NCBI GenBank assembly: GCA_027034975.1
Contig: JALVWQ010000033.1
Location: forward strand, 2,724 to 39,806
Reading direction: 5' to 3'
DNA length: 37,083 nucleotides
Source of the DNA: Campylobacteraceae bacterium
Lineage (GTDB): Bacteria; Campylobacterota; Campylobacteria; Campylobacterales; Sulfurovaceae
The notes under the pieces were generated by a model, which did no database searches, had not been told where the DNA came from, and saw only the letters and a list, made by a program, of their open reading frames with translations. Shown here in pieces: positions 22,726-23,714 of this stretch; positions within the stretch are counted from its first letter, which is position 1, and each line of letters starts with the position of its first letter. The translations under genes were made by a program, and so were the position numbers.

Positions 22726-22762
22726 TAAAAAAAGATAAATAGGATAAATTTACTCCTATTTA
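22726..22762 (-). terminator. Rho-independent terminator of the haem-binding gene
   Basis: On the minus strand TAAATAGGA pairs with TCCTATTTA (arms 22754-22762 and 22736-22744), followed by a run of T (plus-strand A7 from 22727). The stop codon of the haem-binding gene lies inside the stem. Confidence 0.75.
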
Positions 22763-23203
22763 ATCCTCTTTTATAAATTTGCTTGCCCAATCTTGTAACA
22801 GTTGCAGCTCTTTTTTATTGAGTCTTGCATCTTTATGGAAAAGCAGATACTCTGGTGGTGGCATTTTACGAATATTAAGAGCATCTACAATACCCTTATA
22901 GATCTTCTGTTTCTTCTTCTCGTCATACTTGTTAAAGATTGAGAAGTTCAGCCACTTTCTTCCATTTTTAATATTAGAATGCACTCCAATAGAGAGTGGA
23001 GATATATTTCCATACCAAGGCATTCTTGTATGGTTCGAGTGGCAATCGTAACAGCTTCTTTTGAGGATACTCATAACCTCTTTGGGTGCTTTTATTTCAT
23101 CAGCAGGCGTCGCTTCTGGCGGTTTTGGGATCTCAATTTGTATCAATTGTAAAAGCAGTAAAACCCCAACACTCCACCCTAGTATATTAAGCAGAACTTT
23201 CAA
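22760..23203 (-). CDS. Haem-binding domain protein (mono-haem, CxxCH)
   Basis: A 147-residue protein of the haem-binding domain family. An N-terminal membrane anchor or signal (about 5-22, LNILGWSVGVLLLLQLIQI) is followed by a c-type haem site CYDCHSNHTRMPWYG (51-55) and a helical tail with KMPPPEYLLFHKDARL, both typical of the family. It should face the periplasm and hold one covalent haem; the distal ligand is not certain. The start is TTG with AAGG upstream and abuts the stop of the DUF2892 gene (TAGTTG), so they form an operon. Electron transfer or redox sensing is an inference. Confidence 0.85.
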   Translation of the reverse strand: MKVLLNILGWSVGVLLLLQLIQIEIPKPPEATPADEIKAPKEVMSILKRSCYDCHSNHTRMPWYGNISPLSIGVHSNIKNGRKWLNFSIFNKYDEKKKQKIYKGIVDALNIRKMPPPEYLLFHKDARLNKKELQLLQDWASKFIKED

Positions 23204-23404
23204 CTACTTATCCTTGCCAGTAATAGTGCATTGCCCTGTAATAGCACACGCTGGGCAGAAACCTACTAAACCTGCAATAAGAGGTATTATACCTAAATAG
23301 AACCATGCATTTCCAGAGTAGTATCCATACGCTATTAATGATGCTCCTAAAACTATTCTAAATGGTCTACAAAATTTTGCTAATTTTTTTGCATTTATTG
23401 CCAT
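23204..23404 (-). CDS. DUF2892-type small membrane protein
   Basis: A 66-residue protein with two membrane segments and the pattern FRIVLGASLIAYGYYSG ... WFYLGIIPLIAGLVGFCPACAITG, which is the DUF2892 inner-membrane family (also found fused to rhodanese domains in YgaP). The C-terminal CPACAITGQC Cys group is characteristic. The start at 23404 (MAINAKK) is chosen because GGAG lies seven bases upstream; an upstream in-frame ATG at 23446 lies in the flanking palindrome and has no ribosome binding site. It is the first gene of an operon with the haem-binding protein. Confidence 0.85.
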   Translation of the reverse strand: MAINAKKLAKFCRPFRIVLGASLIAYGYYSGNAWFYLGIIPLIAGLVGFCPACAITGQCTITGKDK

Positions 23405-23419
23405 ATTTGACTCCTTAAA

Positions 23420-23580
23420 CCCAAATTTTGCATTAGAGATTAACAATCTTTAGCAATCATTTAGTCTAGGGCATTTACTAAAATCCATCACTTAACCTAT
23501 GGGTTAAGCTCAAGATTTTTGCAAACACTCTAAACAAAAGCATTTGCCAAATCTTTGCTAATTCCAATGCAAAAATTGGG
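23420..23580. repeat. ~160 bp degenerate palindrome
   Basis: The halves 23420-23498 and 23501-23580 are reverse complements at about two thirds of positions. The outer ends match best (CCCAA-N-TTTTGCATT, 14 of 15). The exact centre is CTTAACC-TATG-GGTTAAG (23491-23508). Many mismatches are transitions. It lies immediately upstream of the ribosome binding site of the DUF2892-haem operon. It could be a MITE-like remnant or a large regulatory hairpin. The rest of the gap to 23704 shows no gene. Confidence 0.6.
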
Positions 23581-23677
23581 TTGAATTTTTTGTTGCAAGA
23601 GTATAGTACAATGATATATATTAAAATTTCATTATCTAAATAATAAGTATTAATAGCAAAGATAAATATAAGTTAAT

Positions 23678-23714
23678 AAAAAAGCAAGAAGGATTCTCTC
23701 CCTCTTATCTTCTT
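23678..23714 (-). terminator. Terminator after the spermidine-dehydrogenase gene and small ORF
   Basis: On the minus strand AAGAAGAT pairs with ATCCTTCTT (one bulged base, 12-base loop), followed by GC and TTTTTT. It overlaps the stop of the 25-codon ORF. Confidence 0.6.

Follow-up and report, generated by a model that had tools for sequence, protein, structure and literature searches.

The window, that is, the whole stretch of 37,083 nucleotides analysed here, contains a 161-bp palindrome directly upstream of two minus-strand genes, the DUF2892-haem operon. The features of the locus are as follows.

22760..23203, minus strand: gene for a haem-binding domain protein (PF14376)
23204..23404, minus strand: DUF2892-type gene (Pfam PF11127, YgaP-like_TM; 66 aa)
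23411..23414, minus strand: GGAG, the Shine-Dalgarno-like site of the DUF2892 gene, adjoining the target site and undamaged
23415..23419: 5-bp target-site duplication on the DUF2892 side, TTAAA (TTTAA on the minus strand)
23420..23580: copy of a MITE, with the minus strand as its "sense" strand, which forms a stable, G-U-rich hairpin (from folding, dispersal, flanks and strand bias)
23420..23437, plus strand: terminal inverted repeat, CCCAAATTTTGCATTAGA (from end comparison)
23491..23508: central 7-bp stem with a 4-base loop, the hairpin tip; the stem covaries in relatives
23563..23580, minus strand: terminal inverted repeat of the other end, with 2 mismatches in 18
23581..23585: 5-bp target-site duplication on the far side, TTGAA, differing at one base
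23631..23659, minus strand: weak promoter-like site upstream of the element, not significant
23685..23707, minus strand: terminator-like stem after the upstream saccharopine-dehydrogenase-like gene

The palindrome runs CCC...GGG and is flanked by TTAAA and TTGAA. When its halves are aligned on the minus strand, they form 58 Watson-Crick pairs and nine G-U pairs, with two A-C and ten other mismatches, which confirms over the whole length the preliminary description of two reverse-complementary halves. That description also placed the best matches at the far ends, where the terminal 18 bp are identical at 16 positions, and a perfect CTTAACC-TATG-GGTTAAG at the centre, which lies exactly at 23491-23508. 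Its limits of 23420-23580, five bases before the GGAG, are likewise exact, and the five bases are one copy of the target-site duplication. The predicted RNA fold of 23400-23600 reached -72.2 kcal/mol on the minus strand (z = -7.9) and -44.7 kcal/mol on the plus strand (z = -3.3). None of 200 dinucleotide shuffles was as good as the fold of either strand, and the minus strand surpassed them by far more; the inverted signal is therefore well above that of shuffled sequence, and the palindrome stands. The window element contains no long open reading frame, and Rfam gave no match to it at gathering score, only two weak ones at chance level.

Our analysis revealed that the palindrome is a copy of a dispersed non-autonomous mobile element (MITE). 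A 181-bp query matched 71 pieces in the genome of the window's organism and also matched in 18 of 60 relatives. In the organism's own genome, both ends were present in at least 36 copies, which are 67-188 bp long; this count started from 49 two-ended candidates, of which overlapping ones were merged and three with excess end mismatches dropped. Their sizes were 158-163 bp (23 copies), 185-188 bp (four), 93 bp (four), 79 bp (two) and 67-68 bp (three). The 18-bp end sequence had 95 matches in this genome with up to three mismatches, compared with two for the reversed pattern. A decayed MITE had been among the options first proposed for the palindrome; it is a MITE, but "decayed" does not quite apply, as many copies are intact and one other is 99% identical to the window copy.

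The best-supported length of the target-site duplication was 5 bp. Identical 5-bp flanks bordered 24 of the 36 copies in the own genome, whereas re-paired flanks gave 6.7 on expectation and 16 at most in 5000 trials; across genera, the corresponding numbers were 40 of 62 copies, 9.7 expected and a maximum of 20. The matched targets include unusual sequences, such as TTCAA, ATTAT, ATAAT and TAATA, and their presence on both sides makes the evidence for duplication convincing. The window copy has the duplication at both ends, with one base different. An empty site was found at one locus only, in the congener G006 (L209), in which the sequence upstream of the DUF2892 gene reads TTTTTAAGGAG without the element. 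Upstream sequence was compared at five of seven DUF2892 loci, since the window's own locus (L208) and L213 gave none. In G003, G005 and G011, neither the element nor another insert precedes the DUF2892 gene in the bases shown. Taken together, the dispersed copies, the inverted ends, the 5-bp duplications and the empty site bear out the suggestion of a MITE or non-autonomous element, and the element fits a MITE on every feature tested.

In G004 (L210), the DUF2892 start at 1501 is immediately preceded by a different palindromic insert, GGGCACCTCTAAAAATAGGTGATACCCAC ... GTGGGTATTACCTATTATTAGAGGTGCCC, which lies before the Shine-Dalgarno sequence and represents a second element family at the same site.

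The element is distributed throughout the order. A covariance model built from 14 sequences, with matches counted at E-values, themselves rough, of up to 1e-6, found it in 49 of 398 genomes of Campylobacterales, including that of the window's organism, which belong to 18 of 87 genera and to nine families. Among the matches listed, nearly all were full length, with spans of about 157-168 nt. A search of named genomes with a 21-base end pattern yielded 48 stretches, 39 from Campylobacterota and nine from other phyla, and part of the nine may be due to chance. Separately, L110, L115 and L130 (Calditrichota), L123 (Omnitrophota) and L122 (Chlorobiota) have the same or similar ends and unrelated interiors, and IS1380 genes also occur in three of these genomes.

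An IS1380-type transposase acting in trans appears to be the likeliest mover, because the MITE matches an intact IS1380 element of a relative in its AT-rich 5-bp duplications and, in part, in its ends. G228, a complete genome from the same family as the window's organism, carries IS1380-family insertion sequences of 1661-1662 bp with the ends CCCAAATCCGTAAATAG, lying between the duplications TTAAA, ATGAT, TTTAT and ATTAT. The MITE ends agree with these ends at 11 of 17 bases, among them the first seven, and the kind of target and the duplication length (5 bp, AT-rich) are alike. In G032 (L172), CCCAAATTTTGCAATCAA, which matches the MITE end at 15 of 18 bases, lies beside a decayed IS1380 gene, and in a Verrucomicrobium assembly (L207) an IS1380 fragment is preceded, at a distance of about 210 bp, by an exact 18-base match to the MITE end. 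The ends of two other multi-copy insertion sequences are quite unlike those of the MITE. We can only infer the transposase, since the own genome lacks an IS1380 gene, few genomes carry both, and no long element with the same ends was seen. Specifically, the draft genome of the window's organism (96.9% complete) gave no IS1380 match, and strong IS1380 matches were found in 11 genomes, of which only four (G032, G109, G228 and G362) also carry the element. The complete genomes G074 and G177, with several copies each, gave no match to DDE_Tnp_1. End matches in the own genome, including single ends and wide pairs, disclosed no intact element of 1-3 kb with MITE ends, and no long element with such ends was seen in six complete genomes. 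The transposase may perhaps be supplied in bursts by incoming insertion sequences. The own genome has one DDE_Tnp_1 match, in a frame of 87 aa, which we take to be IS982-like. A solo end in L170 lies near a transposase gene that is presumably IS5-like, and L170 was rejected as an autonomous partner.

It is also conceivable, but rather unlikely, that the mover of the same element was a transposase from another family, either lost in the meantime or encoded by a gene without matching ends. This would account for the lack of IS1380 genes in most carriers, the own genome among them, and for the lack of a long same-ended element in the six complete genomes. In contrast, only IS1380 combines fitting ends with 5-bp AT-rich duplications among the elements seen, and near-identical ends adjoin decayed IS1380 genes. 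For the same reasons, we favor an IS1380-type mover.

The two strands of the element are not equivalent. This was established by a strand-blind procedure, the alignment of each element to its reverse complement, with the copies oriented by sequence homology. G-U pairs exceeded A-C mismatches in 56 of the 57 copies of cluster 0 and in all 16 of cluster 1, while a cluster of five copies of 241-245 bp had no clear strand bias (3 of 5). The bias was present in all 14 representatives with pairwise scores below 82%, which total 136.5 G-U pairs versus 34.5 A-C mismatches. A set of 62 distinct elements was obtained from 138 matches by taking the better strand at each place and leaving out duplicates, a 245-nt match in L137 and a 123-nt match in L229; these copies, from many genera, have 585 G-U pairs versus 110 A-C mismatches, and the sense strand folds better in every one of them (mean -81.0 versus -52.5 kcal/mol). 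Because the strand had here been chosen by a covariance model, which favours G-U pairs, the choice was repeated with a sequence-only profile, which agreed on the orientation in 62 of 62 copies, including all 51 from loci outside its building set. In four palindromes of other phyla that have similar ends, the G-U to A-C ratios are 4.5:3, 7:4, 6:5 and 8:7.5.

The fold also covaries. In an alignment of 46 sense sequences of the 62 copies, a hairpin of 64 pairs is paired in 88.5% of cells, and both sides have changed in 53 of the 64 pairs. The covariation score was 0.452, compared with 0.187 for shuffled alignments, a control that relatedness inflates, and at most 0.126 for slid structures, over which the structure is favoured by having been derived from the same alignment. 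The consensus folds at -106.9 kcal/mol with 64 pairs on the sense strand and more weakly, at -68.7 kcal/mol with 49 pairs, on the opposite strand. Variants of the tip keep their pairing (TTAACC-GGTTAA, TGCACC-GGTGCA and TTCACC-GGTGAA). The earlier option of a large RNA hairpin thus gains support, since the fold of one strand persists across the order through compensatory and G-U changes. The predicted sense hairpin of the cluster 1 consensus has small internal loops every 11 pairs or so, a nearly regular spacing of about one turn of an RNA helix.

The orientation of the element relative to the neighbouring genes is random. Gene starts facing a copy were on the same strand in 36 cases and on the opposite strand in 28 (p 0.38), and facing gene ends in 43 and 34 (p 0.36); when only the own genome was counted, the gene preceding the sense strand was on the same strand in 18 cases and opposite in nine, a difference estimated as not significant. 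Eight of 82 copies overlap an open frame of at least 80 codons. Facing starts lie 9-18 bases from the element in 15 of 64 cases and facing stops 0-2 bases from it in 13 of 77. We attribute this closeness to target choice plus tolerance rather than regulation, because TTTAA is often found next to a Shine-Dalgarno sequence or with a TAA stop inside it. Regulatory selection in cis on the sense strand was rejected on the basis of the random orientation (36/28 and 43/34).

Given the random orientation to genes, any selection on the fold of one strand would have to act through the element itself, and the hairpin seems to serve the element and not DUF2892. We consider it probable that the palindrome is a full-length fold-back MITE, with an IS1380 transposase as its likeliest mover, in which the fold of one strand is kept for the element's own sake. 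According to this model, an element of about 163 bp with 18-bp inverted ends starting CCC would insert at AT-rich WTNAW sites with duplication of 5 bp, and an IS1380-family transposase would act on its ends in trans. The window copy would have entered TTTAA next to the Shine-Dalgarno sequence of DUF2892, sparing the latter. One strand, the minus strand in the window, would stay able to form the long hairpin as the sequence diverges; as a single strand, which is most likely an RNA made from the element, it would matter for how the element persists or spreads.

Among the possible forms of the selected strand, RNA is the most likely and the simplest, as G-U pairs are retained and A-C mismatches are avoided. 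Going further, the element might be a mobile RNA gene, whose hairpin transcript of near-fixed length would aid its spread in trans, for instance through binding to a transposase that is produced elsewhere; we advance this only tentatively. If it were true, selection would keep the RNA fold of one strand despite sequence drift.

Single-stranded DNA, in which G-T pairs are tolerated, is an unlikely candidate for the selected form, for instance as a strand-specific hairpin in replication or transposition. This reading agrees with the random orientation to genes and with the nature of the element as mobile DNA; however, double-strand transposition by DDE transposases needs no such hairpin, and the terminal repeats and 5-bp duplications fit this ordinary mode. 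We regard it as still less likely that the strand asymmetry reflects strand-biased mutation in the spreading lineages, such as C to T on a transcribed or single-stranded strand. A bias of this kind can produce G-U pairs and possibly explains the asymmetry in part, but 53 of the 64 pairs have pairing-preserving changes on both sides, and among these are full swaps, from A-U to U-A or from G-C to C-G, that a mutational bias does not produce by itself.

In the window, the hairpin probably forms the beginning of the DUF2892-haem transcript, as an mRNA leader just before the Shine-Dalgarno sequence, because the upstream gene is followed by a terminator-like stem and a weak promoter-like site is located past the element, although the region has four promoter-like sites against 2.7 in shuffles, which is not significant. 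The predicted fold leaves the GGAG outside the main hairpin. A leader regulator of the operon, whether hairpin operator or riboregulator, is nevertheless very improbable: the strong coding-strand hairpin ends at the Shine-Dalgarno sequence and 15 of 64 facing starts lie within 20 bases of a copy, but copies occur next to many genes and in either orientation (36 starts on the same strand, 28 on the opposite one), and the DUF2892 gene lacks the element in G006, G003, G005 and G011 and has another insert in G004. Operators and a DUF2892 riboregulator were rejected on account of the many different neighbouring genes, the free orientation and the relatives without the element here. The earlier idea of nested operator sites is likewise unsupported, because the sequence moves as a unit and is randomly oriented to genes. 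The association of the element with the DUF2892-haem operon is incidental.

Several known systems resemble the element, and the bacterial MITEs among them were compared by their published descriptions. In the passages of PMC2229807 that describe them, Correia/NEMIS, ERIC, YPAL and CIR are likewise short mobile elements that lie between genes and have inverted repeats; hairpins in the RNA of NEMIS and ERIC are proposed or shown to affect neighbouring mRNAs, and conserved RNA folds are described for CIR (PMC2229807). YPAL, at 168 bp, is similar in length to the present element, but it makes duplications of 3-26 bp, in contrast to the 5-bp WTNAW duplications found here, and most of this group have TA ends instead of CCC (PMC2229807). 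RUP of pneumococcus, a MITE whose transposase was deduced from matching insertion-sequence ends (IS630-Spn1), serves as the model for this line of argument, but it has TA targets and IS630-type ends (PMC2229807). piggyBac, for which a passage of PMC10813416 takes IS1380 as outgroup, has CCC motifs in its ends and TTAA-like targets as well; it is eukaryotic and duplicates 4 bp (TTAA), so that this is a resemblance only.

The IS1380 copies of G228 share with the element the ends starting CCCAAAT. It differs from these intact copies in lacking a transposase gene and in the inner part of its ends, with 11 of 17 bases in common. ISEcp1 is a member of the IS1380 family. A passage of PMC7527135 reports 5-bp direct repeats for ISEcp1, and the AT-rich 5-bp direct repeats of the family (PMC7527135; copies in G228) are like those of the present element. 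A literature search, largely of abstracts and passages, returned no such element from Campylobacterales and no IS1380 MITE. The present element differs from the bacterial MITEs named above in its partly IS1380-like ends and its IS1380-like target, its near-constant length throughout the order and its strand-specific fold.

MITEs are usually regarded as passive debris that borrows a transposase. Our results suggest that selection can act on the RNA (or single-stranded DNA) structure of a MITE itself, on the basis of the near-constant length over 18 genera, the preserved fold and the random orientation to genes. The element is also a candidate link to IS1380-type transposition, and the covariance model can be used for annotating this repeat family in Campylobacterales.

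Variation in size was also observed at the centre of the element. Three 188-bp copies in the own genome (L035, L037 and L038) are enlarged at the tip by 26 bases inserted near GTGACCGAAGGGAACCCACACTTGCAC; this motif, a nested smaller repeat, also occurs next to the copy in L022. Longer versions of about 242, 485 and 554 bp (L099, L111, L113, L139, L073 and similar loci) contain extra repeated inner modules and have matching 5-bp flanks; growth is modular and takes place in the centre.
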